Assembly: GCF_029633865.1 (NCBI RefSeq)
Contig: NC_079220.1
Location: forward strand, 56,264,477-56,328,476
Reading direction: 5' to 3'
Origin: Lampris incognitus
Lineage: Eukaryota; Chordata; Actinopteri; Lampriformes; Lampridae
DNA length: 64,000 nucleotides
The position numbers and the translations under genes are program-made. Of the stretch, positions 990 to 30,681 are shown piece after piece (the first letter of the stretch is position 1; every line of letters starts with the position of its first letter). The notes under the pieces are model-generated. The model was not told the origin of the DNA, did no database searches, and saw only the letters and a program-made list of their open reading frames with translations.

Positions 990-1715
990 CTACTGCTTCC
1001 TCAGTTGTCTTCTCTCCTTCACCAACCTGTCAATTTCCCGCTGCCTCCTGGATTTTGGCTGGGTTGAAGGGTCTATCTGCCTACTGGGTATCTTCTCCTT
1101 TACCCCAAATCTCTCTACGCCATAGCTGTAAATGATGGCTCCCATGCTCTCCAGTTTTCTTTCAACTGTTCCCTTTTGACCTTCTAGTAAGAGGACAAGG
1201 TCAGAGTTGATGGTCTCCCACTCAATCTTCTGGCTGGACTTGGGCCACAGGATTTGAGGTTTTCTTCCTTCCATCTTCCTCTCTGCTGCTGGCTGTGGCT
1301 GGCTGGGCTCCAGACCGGAGTCCAGTGGAGGGTCTATGCAAAGTTGAGCTTCGTCTGGTGTGCTGATACCCTGAGGACTGTGGGGGTTCTCCTGCCTCCG
1401 GGATTCACACGACTGATTTGGCCTACTTCTTAAAAAGTATTGGTCAATGCGAGGCCCCTTACCGAGCTCACTAAGACACTTCTTTTTGCCTTGATGGATC
1501 TTGAGACCCTTCACTGATGTAACCTTTGACCAGCCACAGATGCAGCTGTGCAGCTTTTGTCCTGCCACGTTCTTTCTTGGCAGCTTGTATCTGGTGCCAG
1601 ATGATATTAGCATGCTCCAGACATCCTGAGAAGCCATGGATCCCGGCTTTCTGCACTGATGTATTGACAAAGTTGTTTCTTTGCAGGAATGTGGAGAGCC
1701 TTTGGGCAATCCCAC
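990..1715 (-). pseudogene. RLE-type LINE, zinc-finger part (second unit, junction-fused)
   Basis: A second copy of the zinc-finger domain (SCICGWSK...HQGKKKC) and its linker, ending in the same TAG as the other unit (990-992). The first 50 or so codons are not native N-terminus. They are RT sequence of the preceding unit read in another frame, a product of the tandem junction near 1563. This shows the duplication breakpoints lie just upstream of the zinc finger and inside RT. Confidence 0.68.
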
Positions 1716-2311
1716 TAAAAAATATCTTTCCCTCTACATTATGAAGGCTGATCTGGCGAAACTGGCTGATGCAGGAAGAGTTCTTCTCCTTGGGGATCAG
1801 AATGCCTCCTGCTCTTCGCCATGCCCTGGGTATGACTCTTTTCTGCCATGCCACTTTCATCAGCCTCCAGAGGTATTTCAGGACTCCAGGAGTGTTCTTA
1901 TAGAGTCTATACTGATTACCATTGGGCCCAGGAGCTGACATCGATCTTGCCTGCTTTACCGTCCTCTCCACCTCGCCCAATGTGGGGGGTCTTTGTGTCC
2001 ATATGGTGGTCAGGTGGGTTAATTGGTGGCATGTCATCGGGGATGGTGACTGGCTCATGTCTCCGGACATCAGAGTAGGTCTTCTTTAGGTGCTCTTCCA
2101 GATCTCGTATGGGGACTCTAAGGCTCCCATTTTTCTTGCTGTCAAAAAGGCTCTTGACAAAGCTGTAAGGGTTGCTGTAGAAATGAATCCTAGCCCGTTC
2201 TTTCCTCTTATGCTGTCGTCTTAGGTGTTCTGCTCTTCGCAGCTTTGTCAAACGCTGCTTTATTTCAGCCTGCAGTGCATCAAGCCCAACCCTCTCTCCG
2301 TCTGTGGCCAT
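1471..2311 (-). pseudogene. RLE-type LINE, linker and start of reverse transcriptase (second unit)
   Basis: The frame at 2311-1916 continues the zinc-finger frame with a basic HLRRQHKRKERARIHFY linker. It then shifts by one base near 2000 into the frame at 2070-1471. That second frame holds the RT opening: SAPGPNG, then RAGGILIPKE and FRQISLHNVEGKIF. These match RT motifs 0-2 of R2-like LINEs. The frame then crosses the duplication junction near 1563 into antisense-like sequence and stops. The catalytic YxDD region is absent, so no working RT can be made. Confidence 0.7.
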
Positions 2312-2314
2312 CCT

Positions 2315-2974
2315 CTACTGCTTCCTCAGTTGTCTTCTCTCCTTCACCAACCTGTCAATTTCCCGCTGCCTCCTGGATTTTGGCTGGGTTGAAGGGTCTA
2401 TCTGCCTACTGGGTATCTTCTCCTTTACCCCAAATCTCTCTACGCCATAGCTGTAAATGATGGCTCCCATGCTCTCCAGTTTTCTTTCAACTGTTCCCTT
2501 TTGACCTTCTAGTAAGAGGACAAGGTCAGAGTTGATGGTCTCCCACTCAATCTTCTGGCTGGACTTGGGCCACAGGATTTGAGGTTTTCTTCCTTCCATC
2601 TTCCTCTCTGCTGCTGGCTGTGGCTGGCTGGGCTCCAGACCGGAGTCCAGTGGAGGGTCTATGCAAAGTTGAGCTTCGTCTGGTGTGCTGATACCCTGAG
2701 GACTGTGGGGGTTCTCCTGCCTCCGGGATTCACACGACTGATTTGGCCTACTTCTTAAAAAGTATTGGTCAATGCGAGGCCCCTTACCGAGCTCACTAAG
2801 ACACTTCTTTTTGCCTTGATGGATCTTGAGACCCTTCACTGATGTAACCTTTGACCAGCCACAGATGCAGCTGTGCAGCTTTTGTCCTGCCAGTGCTGAT
2901 GATCCATCGGTTGCAGTGCTGGTCGTCCGACTCATTGTCAAATCCTTTCCTTGTTCCGTTACCGTGTGATCCAC
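2315..2974 (-). pseudogene. RLE-type LINE, N-terminal zinc-finger part (third unit)
   Basis: This 219-codon frame carries one CxCGW-x-KVTSV-x-GLKIHQGKKKC motif near residues 36-57, a single Cys-Cys-His-Cys finger. Such a finger lies at the N-terminus of R2/NeSL-like non-LTR retrotransposons that encode a restriction-like endonuclease; the protein binds target DNA and element RNA. A basic, Gln/Lys-rich linker follows. The frame ends in TAG at 2315-2317. The same frame continues with the ATG at 2311, so a single nonsense codon separates the two parts. This unit keeps its own upstream sequence, so it is the natural 5' part of the element. The family assignment rests on motif recognition; the exact clade is uncertain. 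Confidence 0.7.
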
Positions 2975-3070
2975 CTGTGAGTCATCTTGCGCCCCCGCTC
3001 TCGCAGACTCTGGGGGTATTCTTCTCCTTAAAATTTTCGTAGCAATATTGGGTGGATCCAGGAACGCTAA

Positions 3071-3343
3071 CTAGCGATGGGTCCTGCTAGTATGAGTCGC
3101 TAGCCCATACCAGCCCCGTGTCGGTCTATTCCCTCCTGTCAGCAGTCTTTCCAGGCCGTCATCTGGTCTTTCCCTGATTGTCAGCTGCCCTTTCGCAGCG
3201 GTCACTGGTTTACTCCAGATATTCAAGATTCCAAAAAAAGGACTGGTTGTTAAAATCCCTAGTGTTTGCACTGCAACAGATTCAGTGGAGATTAAACTGG
3301 AGATGTCTGCCAAGGTGACATTGCCACCACCAGGACACATCAT
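3071..3343 (-). other. Probable 5' region of the RLE-type LINE
   Basis: A 90-codon open stretch just upstream of the zinc-finger ORF on the same strand, with no recognisable domain. It lies between the C-terminal end of another LINE copy (3413-3676) and the N-terminal zinc finger (2974), so it is most simply 5' UTR or leader sequence. Confidence 0.35.
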
Positions 3344-3412
3344 CAGTTGTGTACCACAGCATCACAGAGTGTTTCGGCCTTTTATCACAAGACACCCTCC
3401 GCTGAGGCAGGC

Positions 3413-3676
3413 TCACCACAGGTTGATCGGTCCTGGGTGTGTGACCTGTGGGTAGCTGTTCACCCTGGCAGCCCAGACGGCGTCTCTCCTTTTCATCCAG
3501 ATCCAGTGGCTAGTCCTCTCAGCAGTGTTGGCTAGCTCTTTGATCACTCTCCTGTGGGCCTGCTCCCTGACTCCTAGTTCCCTCAGGAGTTTTGCTGTGG
3601 AGCTGGCAACAAAGCCCCTACAACCCACCTCCACAGGGCGCACCTTCACCTTCCAGAGTTCACAGTAAAGACACAT
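3413..3676 (-). pseudogene. C-terminal end of an RLE-type LINE ORF
   Basis: The frame holds VEVGCRGFVASSTAKLL followed by an alpha-helical stretch and ERTSHWIWMKRRDAVWA. This is the conserved tail seen after the restriction-like endonuclease in many fish R2/NeSL-like ORFs. It lies in the same orientation as, and immediately 5' of, the N-terminal zinc-finger region. The arrangement is therefore tail-to-head: end of one copy, then start of the next. RT core and endonuclease are missing between the two. Confidence 0.65.
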
Positions 3677-4087
3677 TGAGACAGCTTATGGAAATTAGAA
3701 AATATGCTCTGATCTTATACCTTTTTGTTCCCAGTAAAAACATGAGATGGGCCTATACCTTAAATTAATCACGAAACAAACAAAATTCCTGTAACTGAAA
3801 ATAATGTAAGATTTATTTCTTATTTTATACATTGAACACAATATACTTACTGAACACAAAATAATTATCTGTGCCAAAACTATAACAAATTATTTAAAAC
3901 AAATAAATAAATCATATCTAGGACCTTAAAGGACAACAATGAGATGGGTATATGCTTTAGTATACACATGAAACAAACAAAATAATTTATAATTTGAACA
4001 CAATATGCTGAACACAAAAAGTTAGCCCATAATTTGAAAAGCAGGACTTTTTAAAGAAATCTTTTATAGAACTTTTCCCATGTTTTC
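3677..4087. other. AT-rich non-coding segment with a degenerate direct repeat
   Basis: No ORF with a recognisable product. A block beginning gagatggg and containing gaaacaaacaaaat occurs at about 3743-3786 and again at about 3940-3983, roughly 197 bp apart, with substitutions. It lies just 3' of the minus-strand nuclease-like gene and may be that gene's 3' UTR. Confidence 0.5.
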
Positions 4088-5822
4088 TCACTCGCTTTCT
4101 GAGTCACAGCTGCTATCACTGCTCTCAACTCTAGCAGTATGTATTCTGCTGCATTTGCTCGCCAGTCCTTGGCAAGGGCACCCGATGTAGTACGGAACTG
4201 CCTTCCTTGCACATGAACAGTTCTTCTGACAACCCTTGACACATGCACATGAGATTGTCGTTTTCATTAAGACAGACCAGGCTGGCTTTGTTGCCGGAAC
4301 AGGAACTGCATGTCCATCAACCAGAGACCAACCAAATTCAGTGCATGGGGGAATTTCTGGCTTGGCGATATGTGCATTCTTGTCAATGATAGTTGCCAGC
4401 GCAGCCCTTTTCAGGTGTAGCATAAATGCATCTTCTGTTGGGGGTAGAAGCTTTAATAGAGTTGACTTGTTGTTCAAAAACTTGTACACTCTCAATTTGC
4501 CCAGATCGGCCCCCTCAAACTGATCAGCTGTGGATGTGTACACTGATATGGTGAGGTCCCGCGCCTGATTGAGAAGGTTATCGGTTATGGTATCACTAGG
4601 GTTCTCACCAAAGTCTTCAAGTGCAGGGATGTCAGGACTTATGCTGCTCTTGAACCATACCTTCTTCCCAGTGAAATATGGGTAGCTAGTTGTGTCTCTA
4701 CCACTCAGACTGTGGATGAATGGCATGGCACAACACTGTGAAGGTCCCAGAGCTACATCCATCTCATGTATAGGCAGGTATGCATTCTGACCTGTTCTAA
4801 CCCACATCTCTGGTAGATCACTCAAGTGTGTTGCACCATAGTACAGACATGTTGTAATGATATCAGTGTCATTAGCATGTATGACAACTCTTTCAACTCC
4901 CTCATTCTGGACAGTGTAGAGTGTGTGGAGGATTATCCTAGTGTCAGCCTCCTGCTGTGTTGATTCCAGAGCAGGAACATCCATCACAGAACCTGCGGAG
5001 AGCACCACACTCTTTGTCTCTTCCTTGAATCCACCACCCAGGTAGAGATGAGTAGGGCCCAGATCACTCCCCAGTTGCTCCTCCTCACACCATCTTTCAC
5101 AGAGAAAGCTCAGCAAGTTTGCTTTGTTAGTAGACACATCAAAAAACTCATGTGGATCTGGAGCTGTGTACTGCTCACTGACTTCATACACTTTGGCTGG
5201 TTTGGATCGAGCATATCTTTGTTGTTGCTCAGCTGACTTGATACTGGTTCCACTGTATCTGTCACAACAGAAGTGTATTATTTCAGTACCACGAGGCACA
5301 TCAGTCAGCAGCAGGTGTTTGTATCTGTCAGCGATTGCTCCAAATCGTTCATCTTTGTGAAAAGACCAGTGTCTTATGGCAGACATAGCATCTACAAGTA
5401 CTGCTGTCTTGAGGATGTTTTGGGGTAGATCAGCATTGATGGTTACTTTGGTCTCCTCTTTCAGGACCTTTACAAGGCTGGACCTGGTGCCAGTTCTCAT
5501 ACTGCCATCTTCCGTGAAGAGGGATAGGGGAAGGTCACCGTACTCGTGGTTGCCTACAAAGTCAACAATGTCGAGTTCTCCACCACTAGCAATGATCTGT
5601 GTCATATGCAGAAGGGCAGTAACTTCATTGCTCTTGCCAGTGGTGCAGGTTTTCCCCCCAGACTTCTTTGGTTTCATGTGTTGTGTGTGGAAAGTGTTAA
5701 GCTTAACAACACTTGTCTTTTTATGATGACTGGTAAGTGACTCAGACAGTGCCTTCAAACCAATTTCTTTTACACTTAACAGGTTGTCCTTGACTATAGC
5801 ATCTGCACACTCACCAGTAGAT
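4088..5822 (-). pseudogene. FEN1/XPG-like nuclease core plus Cys-rich tail (C-terminal segment of the large gene)
   Basis: Numbering follows the 556-residue frame that starts at 5758. It is also open upstream to the Tc1 insertion at 5822. Acidic motifs line up with flap endonucleases: LVDAMSAI (D123), CDRY followed by Lys/Glu/Arg (D166), QEADTR (E270, D272), HANDTDI (D297, D299) and LSGRDTT (D355) before TGKK. FEN1 has VDAS, FDGK, EAEA, EDxD and GSDY followed by GIG-PK in the same order and with the same internal spacing. This predicts a metal-dependent 5' nuclease or PIN-fold domain. A C-terminal cluster at C504, C506, C510, C514, C516, C527, C529 and C536 resembles a CXC zinc module. An acidic Ser-rich tail ends the protein. 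This segment has no internal stop. Family function is unknown; the nuclease role is inference. Confidence 0.75.
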
Positions 5823-5823
5823 A

Positions 5824-7458
<1,635 letters not shown>

Positions 7459-8391
7459 TATATTGAGCAGGGACGACGTGGGTGTTGTGAATGGGTTGGT
7501 CTCTACTGCTGCTGTGACCTTGACTACCTTCTCTGCATCCTTGTTGACACGACTCTTGCCAGATTCATGGTGTGGGCTTGAGGTATGGAGGTGCAGCATA
7601 GATTTGAGCTCTGCAGAAACGGCTGCAGTCAGTGGTTTTGTGTAGATCCACTTCCTCCTGGCGGCAGGGTTAAGGGTAATACCATCGAGACCACTGGCCT
7701 CTTTGGCATCTGCGTTGTACATCTGCTCGAGAATCATGTCAGGAGAGACACCATTGTGGTTTCCATTTACTCTCCTCCCTACAAATGCACCTGCGATCAA
7801 AGCTTCGTGTGCCTCTGGAGCTGTCTCTGGCAGTTTCTTCATCTCAGACAAATACAAAGGCAAAGACTGCTGCCCATATTTGTAATGACCTGCTACAGTG
7901 AGATAAAGTAGCATCTGTGCTGACTCACAGAGATGTCCTTCCCAGTTGCCTTCTCGCTGGTAATAGATGAACCTGTGGAGAATGTCTGACATCTCAAGAA
8001 AGCTTGACCAAAAAACTGCAGTTGGTTGATTCTCAAGAGATTCCTGGAAAAGTGACATCTCTTCTCGTAGGATAGATAACTGTGGACTTGACATTTGGAT
8101 GATCTCCAGCTTCTCAGTACCTGTGGTGCCTTTCTCAAACAACACCTTCACAACATTTTCGACTTGTGACTGCCAGTGTTGTGATTCTCTCTCTGCTGAC
8201 CACGCCTCAAATGCTTGCCAGTACAGGCGCCACATGGCCTCACTGAGGATCCTGAGGGCATGCATTGTTTGGTAGTAGTCAGCCTTCTCTCCAAACATCT
8301 TCTTGGCAGTCCCTTCCTGACACAGGCCAGCTGCTACAAGGATATCTTCTGCGCCTGCATCCCTGATGATCTTGCAAAAAGCCTTCATGTA
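7459..8391 (-). pseudogene. Large nuclease-like gene, third segment
   Basis: Open minus-strand frame between two Tc1 insertions. It begins TAC ATG AAG at the family-B insertion and runs to CTC AAT ATA at the family-A insertion, about 311 codons. It is mostly predicted helical (RDAGAEDILVAAGLCQEG, ALRILSEAMWRLYWQAFEAW), with no catalytic motif I can name. A conserved block LSEMKKLPETAPEAH followed by FVGRR lies in its second half. It joins in frame to the nuclease core downstream. ORF calls beginning at 8394 or ending at 7324 include a few transposon codons and should be trimmed. Confidence 0.72.
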
Positions 8392-9972
8392 CACTGCTCA
8401 AAAAAATAAAGGGAACACATAAGCAATGCGATGTAGCTCCAAGTCAATCACACTTTTGAGATATCAACCTGTCCAGTTAGGAAGCAACACTGATTTGTGA
8501 CTCAATTTCACCTTTTGGTAAATTGTCTAATTTCCAACAGGTTTAAATTAGACAATTTGCAAGACAACCCCTATAAAAGGAATGGATTTGCAGGTGGTGG
8601 CCACAGACCATTTGCCTGTCCTCATCTTTTCTGGCCGATCTTTGGTTAGTTTTTCATTTTGCTAGTGCCCTCACCACTAGAGGTGGCATGAGGCGGTATC
8701 TGCAACCTACAGAAGTTGCTCAGGTAGTGCAGCTCATCCAGGATGGCACATCAATGCGTGCTGTGGCAAGAAGATTTGATGTGTCTCCCAGCACAGTGTC
8801 CAGAGCATGGAGGAGGTACCAGGAGACAGGCCAGTACACCAGGAGACGTGGAGGGGGCCGCAGGAGGACAACAACCCCGCAGCAGGACCGCTATCTGGTC
8901 CTTTGTGCAAGGAGGAACAGGAGGAGCACTGCCGGAGCCCTACAAAACGACCTTCAACAGGCCACTAATGTGCAGGTTTCTGCTCAAACAGTGAGAAACA
9001 GAATGCATGAGGATGGTATGAGGGCCCGACGTCCACAATTGGGGCCTGTGCTCACAGCCCAACACCGTGCAGCCCGATTGACCTTTGCCAGAGAACATCT
9101 TGGTTGGCAGATTGGCCATTGGCGCCCTGTGCTCTTCACAGATGAGAGCAGGTTCACACTGAACACATGTGACAGACGTGAGAGAGTCGGGAGACGCTGT
9201 GGAGAACGTTCTGCTGCCTGCAACATCCTCCAGCATGACCGGTTTGGCGGTGGGCCAGTGATGGTCTGGGGAGGCATATCCTTGGAGGGCCGCACAGACC
9301 TCTACGTGCTAGCCAGAGGTACCATGACTGCCATTAGGTACCGGGATGAGATCCTCAGACCCATTGTCAGACCATATGCTGGTGCAGTGGGCCCTGGGTT
9401 CCTGCTCATGCATGACAATGCTCGTCCTCATGTGGCCAGAGTGTGTCAGCAGTTCCTGTATGTCGAGGGCATTGATGCTATGGACTGGCCTGCACGTTCC
9501 CCAGACCTGAATCCAATCGAGCACCTCTGGGACATCATGTCTCGTACCATCCGCCAACGCGATGTCGCACCACAGACTGTCCAGGAGTTGACCGATGCCC
9601 TGATCCAGGTCTGGGAGGAGATCCCTCAGCAGACCATCCGTCGTCTCATCAGGAGCATGCCCAGACGTTGTAGGGAGTGCATACAGGCACGTGGAGGCCA
9701 CACACACTACTGAGCCTCATTTTGAATCGTCTTGAAGAATTTCCACAGAAGTTGGATCAGCCTATGTTCTCATTTTCCACTTTGATTTTGAGTATGATTC
9801 TGAATCCAGACCTTAATGGGCTAATGATTTTGATTTCCATTGATCATTCTTAGGTTATTTTGCTCTAAACACATTCCTCTGTCTAATAAATAAAGATTTT
9901 CAGCTGAAATATTTCATTCATCGAGGTCTATATTGTGTTTTTTAGGTGTTCCCTTTATTTTTTTGAGCAGTA
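8392..9972 (+). mobile_element. Tc1-like transposon, family B copy 1 (1581 bp)
   Basis: Left end CACTGCTCAAAAAAATAAAG after TA at 8390-8391; right end is its inverse before TA at 9973-9974. The outermost base at the transposase-3' end is A where G is expected, as in copies 3 and 5. The transposase is in plus orientation, the only one of the five copies so placed. One base is missing from the host flank next to the right TA. Allowing for that, the target was the Tyr codon of ACT TAC ATG in the nuclease-like gene. Confidence 0.95.
8688..9713 (+). CDS. Tc1 transposase, family B copy 1, intact frame (341 aa)
   Basis: Complete DD34E transposase. Residues 8-47 form the first helix-turn-helix ([20 protein letters not shown]...), residues 51-60 an Arg/Gly-rich hook, and about 65-110 the second helix-turn-helix. 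Catalytic residues are D152 (TDES), D243 (HDNARPH) and E278 (NPIEHLW). Relative to the other copies it has Gly for Trp168 (RERVGRR) and Pro for Ser190 ([10 protein letters not shown]), near conserved catalytic-core motifs, so activity is doubtful despite the open frame. The ATG lies about 296 bp inside the element. Confidence 0.93.
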
Positions 9973-11077
9973 TAGTTATAAGCTTGGTGAAAGCCCCCAG
10001 CAGCAACACCACATTGCAAAACTCTTCTCTATGTTTGTCTCTGATGGCAACTGCCAGTTCATATGTAGCTTGATCTCCAATAATAATTGTGTATTTGTCT
10101 CCCAATGCACGGGATGTCTTGACCAGTCGTTTCCTCTCTTCTTTCAGAACAGCAGGATCGGTTGGAGATGCTGGGATGAGAGGAAAATAGCCAATGACGC
10201 TGGCTGGTCTTTGTGGGTGGAGCTCTGCACAGAATGCAGAAAAGCCAGGCAGTCCTACCTCTGTATCTTGCGGAGGATTTAACAGTTCTGAAGTTGTAAC
10301 CATTCCTGCTATGCGCCACATAAGCAACAGGTCTTCAGCTGTGCCATCTGAGGAAGTCTCCAGACTTTCTTGCTTTTCAATATGCTCAAGTGACCTGGAC
10401 CTCTGCCTGTCTTTAGCTGATATGTGACACATGGGAGCAGGTGGTAAAGTGATATCAGAGAGGGTTTTTCTTCTGTTAGTGCTAGATGTGGGGAGCCTGG
10501 CACCCTCCTGGCCTTTCACAATGTTTTGGTTTTCGATTATTATTGCAGTGGTGGCATTAAAACTCCCACCCTCCAGTGTCTTCTTCTGCCAGTCCAGATT
10601 ATCAATAGCAAATACATGGGGAAACTCACTGTTTTTTGTCATGGTCTCAGGGACATAAACACCATCCGTTTCAACCTGCTGCATTACCTTCTCACTTTGT
10701 GCTGTCAGCTGACGCTGCAGACGCTCATAACTGATCCCAAACCCCAATCTGTTGTTCATCATTATTAATGATTTACTACGTGTCTGGTTGAATAAGTGGT
10801 AGGTAGAGGCTCTGCCCAAAGGTGTTGGTATCCCAGAGATATACTGGAGGATATACTGTGACATAATAATGGCTTTTTCTGATGTTGGTGGATCAACAAT
10901 GACTCTTCCATCAACACTGGGTTTCTGTATCTTGTCATTTAGTAGCATGGCTGTAAAGTTGAAGAGTGAGTCAGGAACCATCTCGTTAGCAGATCTGAGG
11001 GATATCTCAGTTGAATCCTTCTCAAAGCTTTCCCTTCTGCACTTCCCGCAATCGACTCGAATAATTTTTGCAGCTTG
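9973..11077 (-). pseudogene. Large nuclease-like gene, second segment
   Basis: Open from the codon after the TGA at 11078-11080 down to the family-B Tc1 insertion, about 368 codons. The 355-residue ORF starting at 10981 is only its later part; reading back from there the frame stays open through CGKCRRESFEKDSTE to 11077. Conserved-looking features are GIPTPLGRASTYHLFNQTRS, FAIDNLDWQKKT followed by GGSFNATTAI, and the end block VVLLLGAFTKLIT. No enzymatic motif is recognised. The Asn-Leu-Asp-Trp block with a following Gly/Thr stretch looks structured and would be a useful family signature. Confidence 0.7.
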
Positions 11078-12103
11078 TCACATTGCATTATATTTCTCGC
11101 CTTCCTCATTATTTGCCTCTAGTTGCCTCAGCTTCTTTAGGGCATCGCCGAGGGGTACACCAGATCCACATATGAATCCTGAACCACAACTCTGGTCAAG
11201 TATTGAAACACGTTGTCCATAGTGTTGTTGCAGCTTCAATTTCAGTAAACGTGGTTCGTACTGATCTGCAGTTTTGATGCCAAGCTCCGGCAGAATTTCT
11301 CTGTACCGGTCACATAGTGATTTCACAAGGAATCCTGACTGGTCATGGAAAAAAGGAACTTCCAGCTCTTCCACAAGGCGGGAGAATGCAACAGCATAAA
11401 GATTTACCCTTTGCTTTCCAGAATTAACACGCTGAGCCTTGAAGCTGTTCATGCATGATTTGTGGTAGGCTATATCATTGGCAACCATGTCATGACCCGG
11501 CCCTGTCAGTCTGAGCAATGTGTCATATCTGCCCAGCTTTTTTGCTTTCATCTCAATGGCCCTTTGACTGTTTTTTGTTGAGACCTTACAGTTTGGCTCT
11601 CTGTGCTTCATCCATTGTTTATTGCAGATGACACGTTTCTTTTTGGCTTCAAATTTTTCTGTGTTTTGTCTCGTGAACCTGATACTGTGTTGTGCTGTGC
11701 TACATCCTGAGCTGGTCAAATCTTCAGTTGTTACATTCACATCACCAAGACGTCGCTTCTCAGCATATTGGTAGCTTTTCTCATTTAAGTACAAATTCCA
11801 ACATTTTGGGTGCCACTTCGGTGTACTCTCTTCAAACCATTTTTCTTCTCTAGACACATGGTGCAGTCTTTGGAATACCTCATCTTGTCTAGCATTCATG
11901 GCCTTTGTAAACTTTGAGATTGATTGTGAACTACTACAGTACAGGTCTTTTGCAGAGTCTTGTTGACATAGCACACACTTTTTGTAGTCAGTGGTGTTGT
12001 CTTCACGGCTCTTCTTACAGGGTTCATGCTGAAGTGTCACAGAAATCTCTGCCATACGTTTCTTTGGCTGGCTGGTCATCTTGCTACAGACAAAAACATA
12101 CAA
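11078..12103 (-). pseudogene. Large nuclease-like gene, N-terminal zinc-binding segment
   Basis: 341 codons ending in TGA at 11078-11080, after which the same frame is open again. Two putative zinc-binding modules are visible: C43-x2-C46 with H98-x2-C101 (KCVLCQ and KWHPKCW), then C160 and C172 with H214-x2-C217 (RVICNK and YHKSCM). The second Met (MTSQPKK, residue 9) is an alternative start. The TGA could come from CGA by CpG decay. Basic, charged sequence around residues 10-35 could be a nuclear signal. The whole reconstructed gene would be about 1600 codons, on one strand with no introns seen. Confidence 0.7.
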
Positions 12104-12214
12104 ACAGATTATTAGTCTCTCTGGTCAATAGGGAAGACAATTATTAAAATAGGAAACATGTTTTAAAAAAAATTAAACAGTAAATTAACATACTAAAATA
12201 TTTGCATATGTAGC
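12104..12214. other. Short AT-rich flank between the nuclease-like gene and the Gypsy array
   Basis: About 110 bp without ORF or repeat. It is either the upstream region of the nuclease-like gene or an intron. It ends exactly where the LTR terminus begins (TGTAAC at 12215). Confidence 0.5.
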
Positions 12215-12234
12215 TGTAACCCCTTCTTCACTGG
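12215..12234 (-). repeat. 20-bp stub of a Gypsy LTR (left edge of the array)
   Basis: The terminal 20 bp of the LTR (TGTAACCCCTTCTTCACTGG) are present, identical to the starts of the LTRs at 13926 and 24424. At this point the sequence jumps to the protease-region text cataaatcccctc found in the full element at 22730. The join is at a shared tggc. A deletion removed nearly the whole 3' LTR and most of pol of this first element. Confidence 0.85.
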
Positions 12235-12372
12235 CATAAATCCCCTCTATCTGCACAGGCACCTCAGTAGAGGGCCCCACTAAGCCAGCCGGCAGGGGTG
12301 ACTGGCTTACTTTAATTTGAGGTAAACATTGTGTGGAACGGATTTTGTGTGATGGAGCTCGACGCCGTTCCA
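12235..12372 (-). pseudogene. Gypsy element 1: protease-region remnant
   Basis: Matches 22730-22867 of element 2: a short stretch upstream of the protease, encoding ISQSPLPAGL...EVPVQIEGIY-type sequence, cut off before the LLDSGS active-site motif. It is the last piece of element 1 before the deletion to the LTR stub. Confidence 0.75.
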
Positions 12373-13263
12373 TCACTGAGCTCCGCTGAAGTTTCCCTGT
12401 GGCCGTGACCTTTTGATCAGCTTCTGATTCGCCAGTCTGAGGTTCTCAGAACGCGTACACTCTCGCTTGGTGTGACCATCCTCCCCACACTTATAGCAAA
12501 AGATGCCAGGCAAAGCAGATAAAGCAGCAGACGTGGGAAAGGTCGAGGAAACAACCCTCGGGGAAACAGTGGTCTCTAAGCTCTGGCCCAGTGCAGTCTG
12601 CGGGGCTGGCATTTCAGGAGTCAGGGTAGCAGCACTCAAAACTCTACTCACTAAAGCTGTCAGTTCCTTGACTTCATTCCTTAAACTATCCACCTCAGAT
12701 GCCACCGGATTCACAGCCACCTGAGGAACAGCAGCAGCAGTCACACATGCACGAGGAACCGCAGCGGCAGCAACAGAAAGCTTAGTGTTTTCTCTCACAC
12801 TTACCCAATGCTCCTCTTCTCGGATTTCCCGCATCAGCTGAGAGAAAGTAGGTGGATCTTGCAAAGTATGCATCATTCGCACACGTAAAGCCACCAAGTC
12901 AGTGGTAAGGGCACCCTTGAAGAGCTGCTCCATGCGTGCATGATTCAAGTCAGCAGGACCAATCCCTCCTCTCACAAGAACACGGTGGAGGAGTTTATCC
13001 AAGCGATAGAGGTAACCAGACAGTCTCTCTCCATCTTCCTGGAATGTATGGCAAAACGATGCCGTAAGATCTGCCCCACTCTCAGTGGACCCATACACAG
13101 TGTCAACAGCCGTTAAATACTCAGTAGCCGTGGAAGAGGGATTACTGACCTTCAAGAACCTCACGATGTCCCCAGCAGGCCCACGCAAGCTTTCAACAAT
13201 GCGTTGCCTCTTTGCAGCATCTGCACACTGCCATTCAGTGATCATCTGAGTAGCCTGTTCCAT
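12373..13263 (-). pseudogene. Gypsy element 1 Gag: capsid and CCHC zinc knuckle
   Basis: 296 codons from MEQATQMITEW. A helical capsid part (residues about 1-150, with LRGPAGDIVRFLKVSNP and YLYRLDKLLHRVL) is followed by an Ala/Pro linker and a nucleocapsid knuckle CYKCGEDGHTKREC. The architecture matches PNMA/Ma-type Gag, which belongs to a Ty3/Gypsy lineage. The frame is continuous with the upstream ORF at 13830-13300 apart from one TGA. Here the knuckle is intact, unlike in element 2. Confidence 0.85.
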
Positions 13264-13299
13264 CCAGGAATCATATTCCTCCTCACCAGGGGGAACAGG

Positions 13300-13830
13300 T
13301 CACAAACCTGAAAACAACCTCAGCTTCCTATAACTAGGTGCATCAGATGGGGCCTGATTACAGCGGTCAACCAGCTTGCTTATGACATTGACTAAATCCG
13401 TGCTCACATCAGGTGTAGGAGGCTGGGTGCCCATGACAACAGCCTTAACATCACCCATTGACTTACCCTCCTGCTGTAACAATGCCAACAGTTTGGCCTC
13501 AAATGCATCCCCTTCAGGGACAGGGTTAGCATACGGCCAACTACTCAGAGCATGAACAGACCAGGGACCCGCTTCACCTACAATTCCCACCTCAGGGGGT
13601 AAAGAAACGGGCTCTAAAGCAGCAGAAGTCTCCACTAGAATGAACATGTGCCTACCAGTCTTGTCACTACGGCAACCACGTATCCGAGTGCGACCCAAAA
13701 CTTTGACTGTATCAAGTACACGGCTCACAATATCATTTCCGACATTCGGTGGCACTTTGCTAAGCAAAATAGCATGAGACACATCCACATTCTCCTCACG
13801 GCTCCACTCGACAGCCTGACTGAGCTCCAT
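13300..13830 (-). pseudogene. Gypsy element 1 Gag: PNMA-type N-terminal domain
   Basis: 176 codons starting MELSQAVEWSREENVDV. The pattern WSREENVD..AILLSKVPP......VLDTVKVLGRTRI matches the RRM-like N-terminal domain of PNMA/Ma proteins. It ends ..RLFSGL then TGA (13300-13302), and the same frame carries on PVPPGEEEYDSW into the capsid ORF. PNMA proteins read FSG..PxPGEE.F..W at this place, so Gag was one ORF and the TGA is a nonsense change or a readthrough site. Element 2 has the same TGA. Confidence 0.85.
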
Positions 13831-13908
13831 GCTAACTGTCTTAAATCACAACAACAAACAACAATAAACAGTAAACTACCTACTAAAGTTAGTAAAACAG
13901 GAGTATCC
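13831..13908 (-). other. Gypsy leader between PBS and gag
   Basis: Untranslated leader, about 80 bp in element orientation between the primer-binding site and the gag ATG at 13830. It is AT-rich, with no other feature seen. The counterpart in element 2 is 24329-24406. Confidence 0.6.
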
Positions 13909-13925
13909 CAGCGGTGCCTCCAAAA
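13909..13925 (-). promoter_or_regulatory. Candidate primer-binding site of the Gypsy element
   Basis: On the minus strand the sequence just inside the LTR reads TTT then TGGAGGCACCGCTGGG. TGG start and position fit a PBS complementary to a tRNA 3' CCA end. I could not match the tRNA with certainty. Element 2 has the same site with one change (gcgtcca for gcctcca). Confidence 0.55.
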
Positions 13926-15239
13926 TGTAACCCCTTCTTCACTGGCGGGCAACACCAAGCACATTTAAACAAGACAACATCCTAATGCTGCCAGTTACTA
14001 AAGTGTTACGAGAAAATCCAATGGCGCAACAGGATCCTGAGTTCTCAGCGGTGGAATGGTGAGCTGGCCGAACCTCCTGTGTACCAGTAGGCTAGTGCCA
14101 CTAATGACAATAATAGTGATAAATGATAATAGAAATAATTAACCAAGATAATTATCAATTTAGTAGCGCGGTGCCTCCACTGAGAAAATACTACACTTAC
14201 CTAAGGCTAGTGAATGGTGTATCTTCCCAGAATGTAACAAGCCTGTGGTTAAGGTAGATCTTATAACCCTGCTGTGTACTGGAGTACGGTACAAGCTTAT
14301 TACCAGCACTCTAAAAGTAAATGAGCTGCCAATACACCCGAAATATAATTAATAATAATAGGATTTATTTGATAATACTGAGAGAGAGAGGGGGGGTACC
14401 ACACTAGTGCAGTATTGTTGATCAAATAAACATTAATTAAAATTACACAGGGTGTGACAACCATTCACAATAAACAGAAAGAAAGTACCAAAAGAATACC
14501 AAAATACCCAGCGCTTTCTGTTGGGGCCCGTTGGTGCACATTAAAGCAGTTCTCTGAGCGCAGGACAAGGCAGACACCCTACGATGCCCAGGCGACAAGA
14601 CAAAAGTGTGTGTGTGTGTCAGTATAAGTGGTCTTTTCGGGTTACTCACAACCCTTCGCTCCCACGACCGGGAGGCTGTGTGCAGTCCAGAGGAGGGAAA
14701 GGCGCAGTGCTAGCCGTCGGCTCCCCGGCAGGGCCTCCACCCGCAAGATGGCCACAGGTCGCAACGTTCCGAAAACCCTGGCGATGACAATGGTCCTCCT
14801 GTGGGAAACGAAGCAATCAGACCCAAAACAAACCCCATCAGTAGGCACACGACCGTGGGCCATTCGCAACATTCCTGTCCACAAATGCGGGCCCAGTGCA
14901 CGGCTGTGTACAAAGTCTCCGCGAAACGGGCACTCAGACGGGGCCGCAGAGAGAGAAAAAAATGGACCACTCTCCTTGGAGTCCTGCTGCGAAAGACCAA
15001 ACTCCTCCCTTCCCGCGAGGAGATCGACCGTTGCGAACCCCGCGATTTCGCGGGCAAAACAACTCCACACCACATCATTGGCCAGCCACAAAATTCAAAA
15101 CACAAATACACAGAACAAATACACTCCATTGGTCCACATGTTTGGAAACCACACCAACACAGGGAATGTTTAAGACACAAAGCGTGCTGGTAAATGAAGT
15201 ACCACAAAGTATGTACAGTAGATTTTAGAGGTCCTTACA
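13926..15239 (-). repeat. Gypsy LTR 1 (1314 bp), shared by elements 1 and 2
   Basis: Plus-strand ends are TGTAACCCC and GTCCTTACA, a TGTAA/TTACA inverted terminus. On its left lie a PBS and gag (so it is the 5' LTR of element 1). On its right lies a polypurine tract followed by the 3' coding end (so it is the 3' LTR of element 2). It is about 98% identical by eye to LTR 2 at 24424-25735. ORF calls inside it on both strands (14584-15228) have no recognisable product and are treated as chance frames in GC-rich LTR sequence. Confidence 0.9.
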
Positions 15240-15253
15240 CTCTCCCCCCACCA
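15240..15253 (-). promoter_or_regulatory. Polypurine tract of Gypsy element 2
   Basis: Minus strand reads TGGTGGGGGGAGAG immediately before the LTR, the expected plus-strand primer for reverse transcription. The same tract flanks LTR 2 at 25736-25749. About 200 bp found after the tract in element 3 (25750-25957) are missing here. Confidence 0.8.
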
Positions 15254-15260
15254 GAAACTA

Positions 15261-16842
15261 CACTGCTCAAAAAAATAAAGGGAACGCCTAAAAACACAAT
15301 ATAGACCTCGATGAATGAAATATTTCAGCTGAAAATCTTTATTTATTAGACAGAGGAATGTGTTTAGAGCAAAATAACCTAAGAATGATCAATGGAAATC
15401 AAAATCATTAGCCCATTAAGGTCTGGATTAAGAATCATACTCAAAATCAAAGTGGAAAATGAGAACATAGGCTGATCCAACTTCTGTGGAAATTCTTCAA
15501 GACGATTCAAAATTAGGCTCAGTAGTGTGTGTGGCCTCCACGTGCCTGTATGCACTCCCTACAACGTCTGGGCATGCTCCTGATGAGACGACAGATGGTC
15601 TCCTGAGGGATCTCCTCCCAAACCTGGATCAAGGCATCGGTCAACTCCTGGACAGTCTGTGGTGCGACATCGCGTTGGCGGATGGTACGAGACATGATGT
15701 CCCAGAGGTGCTCGATTGGATTCAGGTCTGGGGAACGTGCAGGCCAGTCCATAGCATCAATGCCCTCGACATACAGGAACTGCTGACACACTCTGGCCAC
15801 ATGAGGACGAGCATTGTCATGCATGAGCAGGAACCCAGGGCCCACTGCACCAGCATATGGTCTGATAATGGGTCTGAGGATCTCATCCCGGTACCTAATG
15901 GCAGTCATGGTACCTCTGGCTAGCACGTAGAGGTCTGTGTGGCCCTCCAAGGATATGCCTCCCCAGACCATCACTGACCCACCGCCAAACCGGTCATGCT
16001 GGAGGATGTTGCAGGCAGCAGAACGTTCTCCACAGCGTCTCCACACTCTCTCACGTCTGTCACATGTGTTCAGTGTGAACCTGCTCTCATCTGTGAAGAG
16101 CACAGGGCGCCAATGGCGAATCTGCCAACCAAGATGTTCTCTGGCAAAGGTCAATCGGGCTGCACGGTGTTGGGCTGTGAGCACAGGCCCCAATTGTGGA
16201 CGTCGGGCCCTCATACCATCCTCATGCATTCTGTTTCTCACTGTTTTGAGCAGAAACCTGCACATTAGTGGCCTGTTGAAGGTCGTTTTGTAGGGCTCCG
16301 GCAGTGCTCCTCCTGTTCCTCCTTGCACAAAGGACCAGATAGCGGTCCTGCTGCGGGGTTGTTGTCCTCCTGCGGCCCCCTCCACGTCTCCTGGTGTACT
16401 GGCCTGTCTCCTGGTACCTCCTCCATGCTCTGGACACTGTGCTGGGAGACACATCAAATCTTCTTGCCACAGCACGCATTGTTGTGCCATCCTGGATGAG
16501 CTGCACTACCTGAGCAACTTCTGTAGGTTGCAGATACCGCCTCATGCCACCTCTAGTGGTGAGGGCACTAGCAAAATGAAAAACTAACCAAAGATCGGCC
16601 AGAAAAGACGAGGACAGGCAAATGGTCTGTGGCCACCACCTGCAAATCCATTCCTTTTATAGAGGTTGTCTTGCAAATTGTCTAATTTCCACCTGGTGGA
16701 AATTAGACAATTTACCAACAGGTGAAATTGATTCACAAATCAGTGTTGCTTCCTAACTGGACAGGTTGATATCTCAAAAGTGTGATTGACTTGGAGCTAC
16801 ATTGCATTGCTTATGTGTTCCCTTTATTTTCTTTGAGCAGTG
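15261..16842 (-). mobile_element. Tc1-like transposon, family B copy 2 (1582 bp), in the Gypsy 3' region
   Basis: Ends start CACTGCTCAAAAAAATAAAG and are flanked by TA at 15259-15260 and 16843-16844. The uninterrupted site is preserved in element 3 (gaaactagctatggg near 25961), which proves the insertion is younger than the Gypsy duplication. The terminal C at the 3' end is intact in this copy. Confidence 0.95.
15519..16545 (-). pseudogene. Tc1 transposase, family B copy 2, frameshifted
   Basis: Same protein as the other copies, broken by one extra T near 16245 (ctgttttgagcag against ctgtttgagcag). This splits it into an N-terminal 107-codon frame (16545-16222) and a C-terminal frame carrying all three catalytic residues. 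It also has Thr for Ser in DGTTMRAV. It cannot make full-length protein without frameshifting. Confidence 0.92.
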
Positions 16843-16846
16843 TAGC

Positions 16847-17931
16847 TATGGGTGCAATGGCAGGAGTGCAGGGCATAAGCACAGGTGTGGGTGCGCAGGT
16901 GTTGCAACAGGAGTGTTGGCTACACCACCAGGCATGAGGCCACACTGGCGCCATGTGTGATGCGACTACATGGTTCGTACCCTGGACTCCTAACGCTCCA
17001 TACACTAACCTATCAGGAGGTTTCCTCGTCCGTTGAGACCTTCGTACTGCAGGTAAGGACTCTGAAGAAACTACATCAGAGGCATTTGGAAGGGGAGCAT
17101 CAGAACTATAGTGCTGGGTAACAGGTTCTTCAACCTCCACTATACCGTGTGAGCTGACAGTAGGTTCCATCTCTGCGGGAACACTAACCCTCTTACTAGG
17201 TGAATGCACTGGACTAGAACCTCTACCCGCAATGGAGACACAAGGTGCTGTGGAGTCTAACTCCATCACAGGCTGCACATCCTGGATGTTTACACACAGA
17301 GGAGCGTTTTGCACTGCATCCTCAGCATAACAGCCAAACTCAGAATCGCTATTTGAGAAACTGAACCGGTCCTGAGTTACAGCAGTTGGAACTTCAGGTT
17401 CAACGACTCTACGCTTATCCTTAGCTCTTCTACGCCTGACAGCTCTAGGGCTGGGAGCAGGAGTGGTGTCAGCCACAGGACCCAATCTTACCTCCTGTCC
17501 CAAAGGCAAGATGTGGTTACGGTGCATCACTTTCACTGGCCCATCATCCACAGGTTTAAGGCGGTACACAGGAAGCTCAGCCAGCCGCCCATCCACCACA
17601 TAAGGACAGGAGCTCCACCGGTCTGCAAGCTTATACTTCCCTTTCAAACCTAGATTCCGAATCAAAACCCGATCCCCAGGACTCAGACTATGATAACGGA
17701 TTTTCTGGTCATAACACTCCTTGTTGCTCTGGTTCATCCCACCCGTGGAAGCTTGCGCTAGCTGATAAGCAGTTTGCAACTCCTCTTTCATCTTTGCCAC
17801 ATATTTCATATGTGACGCAGACGACGTGTCATCAGACGAAACACCAAAACAAACGTCTATAGGGAGCTGAGCTTCCCGACCAAACATCAAGAAAGAGGGT
17901 GAGTACCCAGTAGCCTCATTAGGTGTGCAAC
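16847..17931 (-). pseudogene. Gypsy element 2: integrase C-terminal region and tail
   Basis: The frame at 17890-16811 starts in MFGREAQLPIDVCFG, the conserved end of the Gypsy integrase core. It passes a GPY-like module (SPGDRVLIRN....KLADRW..CPYVV) and continues with a long, low-complexity Pro/Ser/Arg tail (RRRRAKDKRR). No chromodomain is seen, which separates this family from the chromodomain Gypsy at 38.7-40.8 kb. The ORF is cut at PIA by the Tc1 at 16843; element 3 shows the native end PIASF then stop. Confidence 0.85.
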
Positions 17932-17933
17932 TA

Positions 17934-19513
17934 TACTGCTCAAAAAAATAAAGGGAACACCTAAAAACACAATATAGACCTCGATGAATGAAATATTTCA
18001 GCTGAAAATCTTTATTTATTAGACAGAGGAATGTGTTTAGAGCAAAATAACCTAAGAATGATCAATGGAAATCAAAATCATTAGCCCATTAAGGTCTGGA
18101 TTCAGAATCATACTCAAAATCAAAGTGGAAAATGAGAACATAGGCTGATCCAACTTCTGTGGAAATTCTTCAAGACGATTCAAAATGAGGCTCAGTATTG
18201 TGTGTGGCCTCCACGTGCCTGTATGCACTCCCTACAACGTCTGGGCATGCTCCTGATGAGACGACGGATGGTCTCCTGAGGGATCTCCTGCCAGACCTGG
18301 ATCAGGGCATCGGTCAACTCCTGGACAGTCTGTGGTGTGACATCACGTTGGCGGATGGTACGAGACATGATGTCCCAGAGGTGCTCGATTGGATTCAGGT
18401 CTGGGGAACGTGCAGGCCAGTCCATAGCATCAATGCCCTCGACATACAGGAACTGCTGACACACTCTGGCCACATGAGGACGAGCATTGTCATGCATAAG
18501 CAGGAACCCAGGGCCCACTGCACCAGCATATGGTCTGACAAATGGTCTGAGGATCTCATCCCGGTACCTAATGGCAGTCATGGTACCTCTGGCTACCACG
18601 TAGAGGTCTGTGCGGCCCTCCAAGGATATGCCTCCCCAGACCATCACTGACCCACCGCCAAACCGGTCATGCCGGAGGATGTTGCAGGCAGCAGAACGTT
18701 CTCCACAGCGTCTCCAGACTCTCTCACGTCTGTCACATGTGTTCAGTGTGAACCTGCTCTCATCTGTGAAGAGCACAGGGCGCCAATGGCGAATCTGCCA
18801 ACCAAGATGTTCTCTGGCAAAGGTCAATCGGGCTGCACGGTGTTGGGCTGTGAGCACAGGCCCCAATTGTGGACGTCGGGCCCTCATACCATCCTCATGC
18901 ATTCTGTTTCTCACTGTTTGAGCAGAAACCTGCACGTTAGTGGCCTGTTGAAGGTCGTTTTGTAGGGCTCCGGCAGTGCTCCTCCTGTTCCTCCTTGCAC
19001 AAAGGACCAGATAGCGGTCCTGCTGCGGGGTTGTTGTCCTCCTGCGGCCCCCTCCACGTCTCCTGATGTACTGGCCTGTCTCCTGGTACCTCTTCCATGC
19101 TCTGGACACTGTGCTGGGAGACATATCAAATCTTCTTGCCACAGCACGCATTGATGTGCCATCCTGGATGAGCTGCACTACCTGAGCAACTTCTGTAGGT
19201 TGCAGATACCGCCTTATGCCACCTCGAGTGGTGAGGGCACTAGCAAAATGAAAAACTAACCAAAGATCCGCCAGAAAAGATGAGGACAGGCAAATGGTCT
19301 GTGGCCACCACCTGCAAATCCATTCCTTTTATAGGGGTTGTCTTGCAAATTGTCTAATTTCCACCAGGTGGAAATTAGACAATTTACCAACAGGTGAAAT
19401 TGCTTCACAAATCAGTGTTGCTTCCTAACTGGACAGGTTGATATCTCAAAAGTGTGATTGACTTGGAGCTACATTGCATTGCTTATGTGTTCCCTTTATT
19501 TTTTGGAGCAGTG
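17934..19513 (-). mobile_element. Tc1-like transposon, family B copy 3 (1580 bp), in the Gypsy integrase
   Basis: Flanked by TA at 17932-17933 and 19514-19515. The first base at the transposase-3' end is T instead of C (TATACTGCTC). It splits the integrase reading frame after HIAHLVHAY. Element 3 lacks this insertion but has its own short deletion there. Confidence 0.94.
18192..19217 (-). pseudogene. Tc1 transposase, family B copy 3, start codon lost
   Basis: The frame is open for the full 341 codons, but the initiator ATG is ATA at 19217-19215 (ttatgcc where others have tcatgcc). The next usable start is internal, within the first helix-turn-helix. All catalytic residues are present. Differences from copy 4 include Met for Val in FDMSPST, Lys for Arg in AWKRYQ and Phe for Ile in RPFVRPY. 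Confidence 0.9.
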
Positions 19514-19515
19514 TA

Positions 19516-19856
19516 TATGCATGCACCAGGTGTGCAATGTGCTGGCTCCATTTAGACTTCTCATGAGACTCCAGAGTACCTAACATATCCAACAGGGTCC
19601 TGTTGAATCTCTCAGGTTGAGGATCACCCTGTGGGTGGTAAGGAGACGTCCTAGACTTCTTTACACCCAACATGGACAACATCTCAGTCACTAGCCAACT
19701 TTCAAAATCTCTCCCCTGGTCAGAATGTACACGCGTAGGCAAGGCATAATGGATAAAATACCTCTCCCACAGAGTCTTAACCACCGTGACAGCTGTCTGG
19801 TCCTTGGTGGGAAAAGCCTGGGCATAGCGTGTGAAGTGGTCAGTGACCACTAGCAC
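19516..19856 (-). pseudogene. Gypsy element 2: integrase catalytic core
   Basis: The frame reads VVTDHFTRYAQAFPTKDQ, ALPTRVHSDQGRDFES and TSPYHPQGDPQPERFNRTL. The D-x-D-x35-E signature is complete except that residues upstream of VVTD are out of frame. The core joins YxxHIAHLVHAY to the Tc1 insertion at 19515. A frameshift separates it from the zinc-binding part of integrase at about 19900. Confidence 0.88.
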
Positions 19857-22685: not shown

Positions 22686-22871
22686 CTACAAGATAGTGAC
22701 CTGGGAACCACTATCAAGAAGAGCTTTGGCATAAATCCCCTCTATCTGCACAGGCACCTCAGTAGAGGGCCCCACTAAGCCAGCCGGCAGGGGTGACTGG
22801 CTTACTTTAATTTGAGGTAAACAATGTGTGGAACGGATTTTGTGTGATGGAGCTCGGCGCCGTTCCATCAC
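22686..22871 (-). pseudogene. Gypsy element 2: aspartic protease motif
   Basis: Short frame containing VPVQIEGIYAKALLDSGSQVTIL. DSGS is the active-site triplet of retroviral-type aspartic protease. It stops at TAG straight after VTIL; the next part of the protein continues in the same frame (RRFYEAYVKHLPLQP). Element 1 is deleted just before this motif. Confidence 0.82.
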
Positions 22872-22957
22872 TGAGCTCCGCTGAAGTTTCTCTGTGGCCG
22901 TGACCTTTTGATCAGCTTCTGATTCACCAGTCTGAGGTTCTCAGAACGCATACACTC

Positions 22958-23761
22958 TCACTTGGTGTGACCATCCTCCCCACACTTATAGCAAAAGATG
23001 CCAGGCAAAGCAGATAAAGCAGCAGACGTGGGAAAGGTCGAGGAAACAACCCTCGGGGAAACAGTGGTCTCTAAGCTCTGGCCCAGTGCAGTCTGCGGGG
23101 CTGGCATTTCAGGAGTCAGGGTAGCAGCACTCAAAACTCTACTCACTAAAGCTGTCAGTTCCTTGACTTCATTCCTTAAACTATCCACCTCAGATGCCAC
23201 CGGATTCACAGCCACCTGGGGAGCAGCAGCAGCAGCAGTCACACGTGCACGAGGAACCACAGCGGCAGCAACAGAAAGCTTAGTGTTTTCTCTCACACTT
23301 ACCCAATGCTCCTCTTCTCGGATTTCCCACATCAGCTGAGAGAAAGTAGGTGGATGTTGCAAAGTATGCATCATTCGCACACGTAAAGCCACCAAGTCAG
23401 TGGTAAGGGCACCCTTGAAGAGCTGCTCCATGCGTGCATGATTCAAGTCAGCAGGACCAATCCCTCCTCTCACAAGAACACGGTGGAGGAGTTTATCCAA
23501 GCGATAGAGGTAAGCAGACAGTCTCTCTCCATCTTCCTGGAATGTATGGCGAAACGATGCCATAAGATCTGCCCCACTCTCAGTGGACCCATACATAGTG
23601 TCAAGAGTCGTTAAATACTCAGTAGCCGTGGAAGAGGGATTACTGACCTTCAAGAACCTCACGATGTCCCCAGCAGGCCCACGCAAGCTTTCAACAATGC
23701 GTTGCCTCTTTGCAGCATCTGCACACTGCCATTCAGTGATCATCTGAGTAGCCTGTTCCAT
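22958..23761 (-). pseudogene. Gypsy element 2 Gag: capsid and damaged zinc knuckle
   Basis: The same protein as element 1 Gag (MEQATQMITEW...), but the knuckle reads CYKCGEDGHTK and then TGA, where element 1 has AAG CGA GAG. This is a CGA-to-TGA change that removes the last knuckle cysteine. Other substitutions are few. Confidence 0.88.
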
Positions 23762-23797
23762 CCAGGAATCATATTCCTCCTCACCAGGGGGAACAGG

Positions 23798-24328
23798 TCA
23801 CAAACCTGAAAACAACCTCAGCTTCCTATAACTAGGTGCATCAGATGGGGCCTGGTTACAGCGGTCAACCAGCTTGCTTATGACATTGACTAAATCCGTG
23901 ATCACATCAGATGTAGGAGGCTGGGTGCCCATGACAACAGCCTTAACATCACCCATTGACTTACCCTCCTGCTGTAACAATGCCAACAGCTTGGCCTCAA
24001 ATGCATCCCCTTCAGGGACAGGGTTAGCATACGGCCAACTACTCAGAGCATGAACAGACCAGGGACCCGCTTCACCTACAATTCCCACCTCAGGGGGTAA
24101 AGAAACGGGCTCTAAAGCAGCAGAAGTCTCCACTAGAATGAACATGTGCCTACCAGTCTTGTCACTACGGCAACCACGTATCCGAGTGCGACCCAAAACT
24201 TTGACTGTATCAAGTACACGGCTCACAATATCATTTCCGACATTCGGTGGCACTTTGCTAAGCAAAATAGCACGAGACACATCCACATTCTCCTCACGGC
24301 TCCACTCGACAGCCTGACTGAGCTCCAT
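23798..24328 (-). pseudogene. Gypsy element 2 Gag: PNMA-type N-terminal domain
   Basis: 176 codons, nearly identical to the ORF at 13300-13830 of element 1, with the same TGA after RLFSGL (23798-23800). Gag starts 96 bp inside the LTR edge. Confidence 0.87.
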
Positions 24329-24406
24329 GCTAACTGTCTTAAATCACAACAACAAACAACAATAAACAGTAAACTACCTACTAAAGTTAGTAAAACAGGA
24401 GTATCC

Positions 24407-24423
24407 CAGCGGTGCGTCCAAAA
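24407..24423 (-). promoter_or_regulatory. Candidate primer-binding site of Gypsy element 2
   Basis: Same position and sequence as at 13909-13925 with one substitution (G for C in the middle). It is directly adjacent to the TGTAAC LTR end at 24424. Confidence 0.5.
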
Positions 24424-25735: not shown

Positions 25736-25963
25736 CTCTCCCCCCACCAAATAAACAGCATGCCCCCATGCTGAGTCACACAGGCATTAAGAGAAGAAAG
25801 AACCCAATAAACAAACAAACAAAAAAACACACACCAACCCCACCAAATAAATAACATGTCCTGCCCATACCAGGTCACATACTTACTAAGGTGAAGAAGG
25901 AAGAAAAGAAAGGAACATAAAGAAATTACCAAAACAACAAACATAGTCTAGCACTCAGAAACT
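25736..25963 (-). other. Polypurine tract and 3' UTR of Gypsy element 3
   Basis: The PPT (minus strand TGGTGGGGGGAGAG) is followed by about 210 bp of AC-rich sequence up to the stop of the pol ORF. This block is absent from element 2, where the PPT joins directly to gaaac next to the Tc1. Confidence 0.75.
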
Positions 25964-27211: not shown

Positions 27212-27420
27212 CGGCTAAGTGCTCATAAGGGATGCCGGTTTCAGGGGCCTCTGAATGCCTCTTAAGTGCACCGGTTTACATACAAATAAAAAAATCCTAT
27301 ATGATGGATCCATAACACGTCGAAAATTAACGTGTCGACACGTCGGTTTTGGATGCGTTCCGCGTCATATGACGCGTGGTGGCATCAAATGACGCGCAAC
27401 ACGTCGAAAATTAACGACAC
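27212..27420. other. CpG-dense unique segment with short perfect palindromes
   Basis: No ORF. It contains ACGTGTCGACACGT and CGCGTCATATGACGCG, both perfect palindromes, and a repeated aacacgtcgaaaattaacg at about 27316 and 27399. It lies between the truncated Gypsy element 3 and a truncated Tc1. Confidence 0.6.
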
Positions 27421-28990: not shown

Positions 28991-29098
28991 TGTATATTTA
29001 TCCATCACAGTATATTTGATCCACCACTGTATATATACCACCACTGTATATATATTTATATTCTTACTTGTCTATAACCAGTTCTCATTATGTATATA

Positions 29099-30679: not shown

Positions 30680-30681
30680 TA

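Follow-up and report, generated by a model that had tools for sequence, protein, structure and literature searches.

The minus-strand gene at 4088-12103 of the window, as we call the whole 64-kb stretch of Lampris incognitus DNA analysed here, very probably belongs to a cut-and-paste DNA transposon of AcademX type, of which it is a dead copy with truncated ends; AcademX is assigned by published description, from one passage. According to this best explanation, which we hold as a whole with high confidence, the family protein comprises about 1600 residues in four parts: Cys/His modules, a DDE-type core with a large helical insertion, a 5' nuclease of FEN1/EXO1 fold and a CXC-type tail. While this kind of element is already known, the same genome also harbours relatives that look intact and recently spread. 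An earlier note on this DNA had described an unusual member of the 5'-nuclease/PIN superfamily; its nuclease reading was right, while the DDE-type core and the mobility had been missed.

Structure and damage of the window copy

The gene consists of four ORF pieces of one protein of about 1600 codons, found in the ORF list as minus-strand frames at 11078-12124, 9914-11077, 7324-8397 and 4088-5893. In tblastn the sea urchin protein P0069 (LOC105441519, named DUF6589 domain-containing) aligns along all four, with 64% identity over 702 columns, 75% over 316 and 70% over 563. Eight full-length relatives (P0070-P0074 and P0076-P0078) measure 1582-1600 aa, in agreement with the length given in the earlier note, and the gene is single-exon, as stated there.

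The N-terminal piece (11078-12124, minus strand), whose first Met codon lies at 12077-12079, carries two Cys/His (CxxC...HxxC) modules recognized by tblastn with P0069 and by comparison of 94 relatives, in which both are conserved. Both zinc-type modules had been noted before; the second, however, has lost its first Cys in the window copy. An in-frame stop at 11078-11080 closes this piece. The first part of the transposase-like core follows at 9974-11077 (minus), with codons checked for D1 (AIDNLDW, 10601-10603) and D2 (GDQATYE, 10073-10075) and with a frameshift near 9990. The second part (7459-8391, minus; 75% identity to P0069 in tblastn) comprises the helical insertion and the catalytic E (SPDMxLEQ, 7726-7728, codon checked). 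The nuclease core occupies 4343-5488 (ORF residues 136-517) and the C-terminal Cys cluster 4151-4249, both on the minus strand. The stretch 3655-4087 (minus) is, by blastn with the copy L013 from elsewhere in the genome, the leftover 3' untranslated part of the element up to a truncation joint near 3655.

The span 4088-12103 given earlier was correct, but besides the stop and the frameshift the interval also holds two Tc1-like transposons. One, at 8392-9972 on the plus strand, has a 378-codon transposase frame and TA target duplications at 8390-8391 and 9973-9974; the other, at 5824-7458 on the minus strand, has a Sleeping-Beauty-type HTH and TA duplications at 5822-5823 and 7459-7460. The window copy is thus broken, having lost both ends and acquired an in-frame stop, a frameshift and two Tc1-like inserts.

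In total, the body of the truncated transposon covers 3655-12214 (minus strand) and corresponds to positions 1175-6480 of the 7221-bp L013 copy at 96-98% identity (blastn). Because the window copy is truncated at both ends, the window gives no signal of terminal inverted repeats (TIRs): the TIR core was not found anywhere in the 64 kb with up to 2 mismatches allowed, and a TIR search within the window was no better than chance (score 21, equalled by 82 of 200 shuffles). A second instance of the joint near 3655 lies at C13:54823919-54824116 (40 of 390 candidates scored), which suggests that the truncated copy itself was duplicated.

The window holds further repeats. The Tc1-like element of 8392-9972 has four more copies at 15256-16844, 17929-19519, 29097-30683 and 34233-35819; the five copies are 97.9-99.1% identical and four of them keep the 378-codon frame open, so that this is, judged by these sequences, a young family. 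Part of a gypsy-type retroelement is present in two same-orientation copies (12232-19696 and 22727-27212), which carry a PNMA-like gag (PF14893, E 2e-44), and a single pol frame lies between them; the first copy ends abruptly close to where it meets the transposon. Comparison with L013 ruled out that the gypsy-like junction at 12222 is a terminus of the transposon, as had been considered. At positions 1-2892 a unit of about 1325 bp is repeated in tandem at 99% identity, and a 243-codon frame at 51483-52214 weakly resembles a V-set domain, with an E value of 0.0021 that misses the Pfam cut-off.

Copies and mobility in the genome

The C-terminal piece matches at least 88 stretches in the genome of the window (1.48 Gb, 537 contigs; 73 of 3266 candidates scored), which bears out the suspicion that the gene is multi-copy; the copies number fewer than 88, as some give several stretches. 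Twenty copies of the family were fetched and inspected for termini and target duplications. The termini for which the earlier note had suggested a search were found here, the copies having sharp ends of the form TACCCAGGGGGCAAA...TTTGCCCCCTGGGTA. Both termini were recovered in 17 of the 20, and L014, L021 and L028 were without one end within the search. Sixteen of the 17 two-ended copies are flanked by a 3-bp target duplication, which in L010 can be read as longer, and L012 has no matching duplication; counted by independent sites the figure is 14 of 15 (L022-L024 lie at one site). Copy lengths range from 3.4 to 7.9 kb. L013 (7221 bp) has long, imperfect inverted repeats (47-579 against 7205-6679, 85.7%) and an in-frame stop. 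Hence the statement that no signs of mobility are visible holds for the end-clipped window copy only and fails for other copies with their long TIRs and 3-bp duplications.

In nine of the 20 copies the coding part starts only at about residue 1019-1029 of P0069, with one deletion joint common to all nine; D1 and D2 are lost in them. Eight of these derivatives are two-ended and lie at different sites with the duplications TAA, TTA, GCA, TGG, TCA, TAT, TCT and ATA. Judging from these sites, the derivatives probably depended for their movement on protein supplied in trans.

A FEN1/XPG-type nuclease gene of the host, with its paralogues and pseudogenes, might also leave a long ORF conserved across phyla, a conserved nuclease site and many copies, and a median dN/dS of 0.70, computed for 210 pairs of copies, points in the same direction, although base changes are unmatched in this value, so that it deserves less weight. 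Such a gene is nevertheless refuted by the dispersed copies themselves, 16 of 17 of which combine long inverted termini with a 3-bp target duplication, and the deletion derivatives at many sites, the DDE core upstream of the nuclease and a near-neutral decay once base changes are matched all speak against it. We regard it as highly improbable.

For the matched comparison, substitutions were counted against the majority codon over the C-terminal 580 codons, and the expectation was obtained by placing the same base changes at random. Over 21 copies, 112 silent, 271 replacing and 10 stop changes were observed, compared to 109.1, 271.2 and 12.7 expected (N/S 2.42 and 2.49, respectively). The 17 copies outside C14 gave an N/S of 2.43 against 2.46 expected, and eight 3.7-kb derivatives 2.83 against 2.52. 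The neutral-looking substitutions in these eight speak against a selected nuclease-only gene in the 3.7-kb derivatives. Four near-full copies showed a small shift towards constraint, with an N/S of 2.0 instead of 2.61 (23 silent, 46 replacing and 0 stop changes; 18.6, 48.5 and 2.0 expected). The copies thus decay close to neutrally, as transposon copies do, although a weak trace of constraint, such as a constrained moving lineage would leave, may be present.

At C14:51.4-54.5 Mb at least 13 places of the family lie within about 3 Mb. Four fetched copies from this cluster have flanks alike at 95.6-98.4%, a TTT duplication is common to three, and the flanks contain immunoglobulin V-set frames (L021 6451-6843 and L022 2553-2936; Pfam E 6.7e-16 and 1.9e-17). 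Since the flanks are alike and hold V-set frames, the C14 copies seem to be a single insertion that multiplied as an Ig V array was amplified.

Transposase core and cysteine-rich parts

The transposase-like core sits between the N-terminal Cys/His modules and the nuclease. Its D1, D2 and E, supplied in the window copy by the motifs DNLDW, GDQ and DMxLEQ, are invariant in all 94 relatives of 1400 aa or more. A model of the 1160-aa relative P0068 (pLDDT 84.1, pTM 0.80) predicts, one after the other, a strand at 52-60 (D56), strands at 70-79 and 194-201, a helix, a strand at 230-234 followed by D235, a helix, a strand at 256-260, another helix, an all-helical region (282-467) and a helix at 485-497 (E490). 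Strands and helices follow each other in this way in DDE transposase cores that carry a helical insertion. On the basis of the conserved residues and the predicted strand order only, we argue for a DDE-type, RNase-H-like core. The matches listed in a structure search with the P0068 model were nucleases, none of them to the DDE part.

Pfam DUF6589 (PF20231) matches the core in 18 of 40 relatives. This family is described as of unknown function, and we did not find it named in the literature searched; its match in P0068 takes in both D2 and the catalytic E of the DDE-like core.

The Cys tail has nine Cys positions, each kept in 92-94 of the 94 relatives. The window copy, in which a C-terminal Cys cluster had been seen before, retains eight and has Tyr at the ninth. 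Several relatives are named Tesmin/TSO1-like CXC in UniProt; Pfam reported no such domain.

Nuclease part

The FEN1/XPG-like core proposed in the earlier note was recovered by structure prediction together with a structure search: a model of the window's own 601 aa predicts a FEN1/EXO1-type fold for ORF residues 136-517. All seven acidic positions named there are present in the checked codons. In the stop-to-stop frame of ORF 4088-5893 (minus strand), whose numbering exceeds the earlier one by 45, they are D168, D211, E315, D317, D342, D344 and D400. In a 53-row alignment they make up seven of the eight most conserved among 71 acidic positions, one of them alternates between D and E among the 94 relatives, and in the predicted model they lie at strand ends and helix starts. 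By predicted fold and ordered acids, the C-terminal part of the window gene belongs to the FEN1/XPG 5' nuclease superfamily.

The likeness to the 5' nucleases FEN1, EXO1, XPG and XRN consists in the fold over residues 136-517 and in the order of the seven metal-site acids. The family differs from them by an identity of about 11%, by the lack of a Pfam match and by its fusion to a transposase. The third motif, EAEA in FEN1/XPG nucleases, is EAD or DAD in the window's family. By sequence, phmmer and a profile search of the PDB returned nothing relevant among solved nucleases. Pfam reported no nuclease family in 40 relatives at E up to 0.01, and a more permissive limit (E up to 10), applied to four full-length relatives including three new ones, gave none either.

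Related lineages and distribution

A genome search with the transposase piece gave at least 40 places at 24-26% identity, extending from query residues 96-101 to 370-372 (read by eye). In seven of the 40 listed places the frame stays open for 1500 codons or more and the match is free of stops. The open frame of L033 comprises 1568 codons, and its protein is laid out like that of the window's family. With L033 as query, 30 of 5085 first-look candidates were scored; all 30, L033 itself included, match it at 97-100% over 1526 or more of its 1568 residues. Lineage C, as we call this group, offers intact-looking copies, for which the earlier note had proposed to search: about 1560 codons are free of stops in 21 of the 30 scored places. 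The two lists, with one place in common, hold at least 69 places; 30 are tied to lineage C by protein identity of at least 97% and six more by the same inverted repeat (seven of seven looked at). Its termini begin with TAGTCCATGGGCC, and the arms match over about 480 bp at 97-99%. By eye, three of four copies show 3-bp duplications (TGA, TAA and ATA), and copy C3 has no matching duplication. From these sequence features lineage C looks recently active. A third, broken lineage of the same layout, L034 (C1:64780500-64785999), is about 33% identical to the transposase core of the window.

Protein searches returned 756 proteins at E up to 0.001, the best 120 being listed, and at least 67 and 38 in two others. 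The matches listed include proteins from sponge, limpet, sea spider and others, and the closest named proteins among them come from Dissostichus, Pogonophryne and Siganus, which points to a teleost host. No relative was confirmed in scans of viral contigs and of prokaryote genome contigs. P0090 is recorded as a protein of a Sedimenticola MAG, but contamination by a host animal is its likelier source. P0008, P0035, P0052 and P0090 bear misleading public names (TIM21, spectrin-associated protein, ryanodine receptor and Sedimenticola MAG protein) and are probably pieces of transposons that gene models picked up, or DNA of the host that ended up in a MAG.

Assignment and possible mechanism

Academ is listed among the superfamilies with a DDD/E transposase (PMC9587614), and there are annotations of it for zebrafish, medaka and stickleback (PMC4746887) as well as for fish in general (PMC6404401). 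According to one passage, AcademX elements generate duplications of 3 or 4 bp and AcademH elements of 9 or 10 bp, tied to an encoded nuclease and helicase, respectively (PMC10045372). We assign the window's family to AcademX because the testable features fit: compared by description with this passage, it shares a DDD/E-type transposase, a nuclease in the same element and 3-bp duplications (PMC10045372). AcademH, as described there, is the other lineage of the same superfamily, with a helicase and 9-10 bp duplications (PMC10045372); in the window's family no helicase Pfam family was found in 40 relatives (E up to 0.01), and the duplications are 3 bp. The TIRs of the window's family are long (over 500 bp) and imperfect, and internal-deletion derivatives are many; we found no published statement that these two features are usual for AcademX. 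The nuclease of AcademX is called XPG.

Since the placement in Academ is made by description and Pfam gives the core only as DUF6589, we also considered another superfamily of DNA transposons in which DDE and FEN-fold parts are combined. It appears improbable to us, as the combination of DDE transposase, nuclease and 3-bp duplications is that published for AcademX in the passage mentioned (PMC10045372). The size fits as well: curated bivalve Academ elements average 5565 bp (PMC10294476), and many relatives have about 1500-1600 aa on contigs of 5-7 kb.

For the AcademX element we propose that the Cys/His modules probably read the terminal inverted repeats and that the CXC-type tail, probably DNA-binding, would bind the long inverted repeats together with them. 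The DDE core would cut the ends and join them to the target with a 3-bp stagger, and the nuclease would remove 5' flaps or overhangs at the new joints, after which the gap could be filled and sealed. A nuclease that acts outside transposition itself, e.g. in repair of the donor gap or at replication forks, is a less likely but serious possibility: the fold alone gives no step, and the EXO1, FEN1, XPG and XRN structures score within a few Z units of each other against the nuclease model. On the other hand, each of the 94 relatives with at least 1400 aa keeps transposase and nuclease sites together in a single chain, and duplication length varies with the encoded enzyme between AcademX and AcademH (PMC10045372).

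Host repair is thought to finish the integration of many cut-and-paste transposons. It is a tentative idea, and one we would not expect to hold in full, that lineage C is an active or very recently active AcademX lineage whose own flap endonuclease is obligatory for end processing and, rather than the DDE core alone, fixes the 3-bp duplication, with DUF6589 as the Academ transposase core. The transposon family gives a likely meaning to DUF6589 and also to some animal proteins whose automatic names mislead. A transposase and a FEN/EXO1-fold nuclease in one protein raise the question whether transposons may supply flap removal themselves and whether this sets the length of the target duplication, and with the intact-looking relatives the part played by the fused nuclease can be tested.
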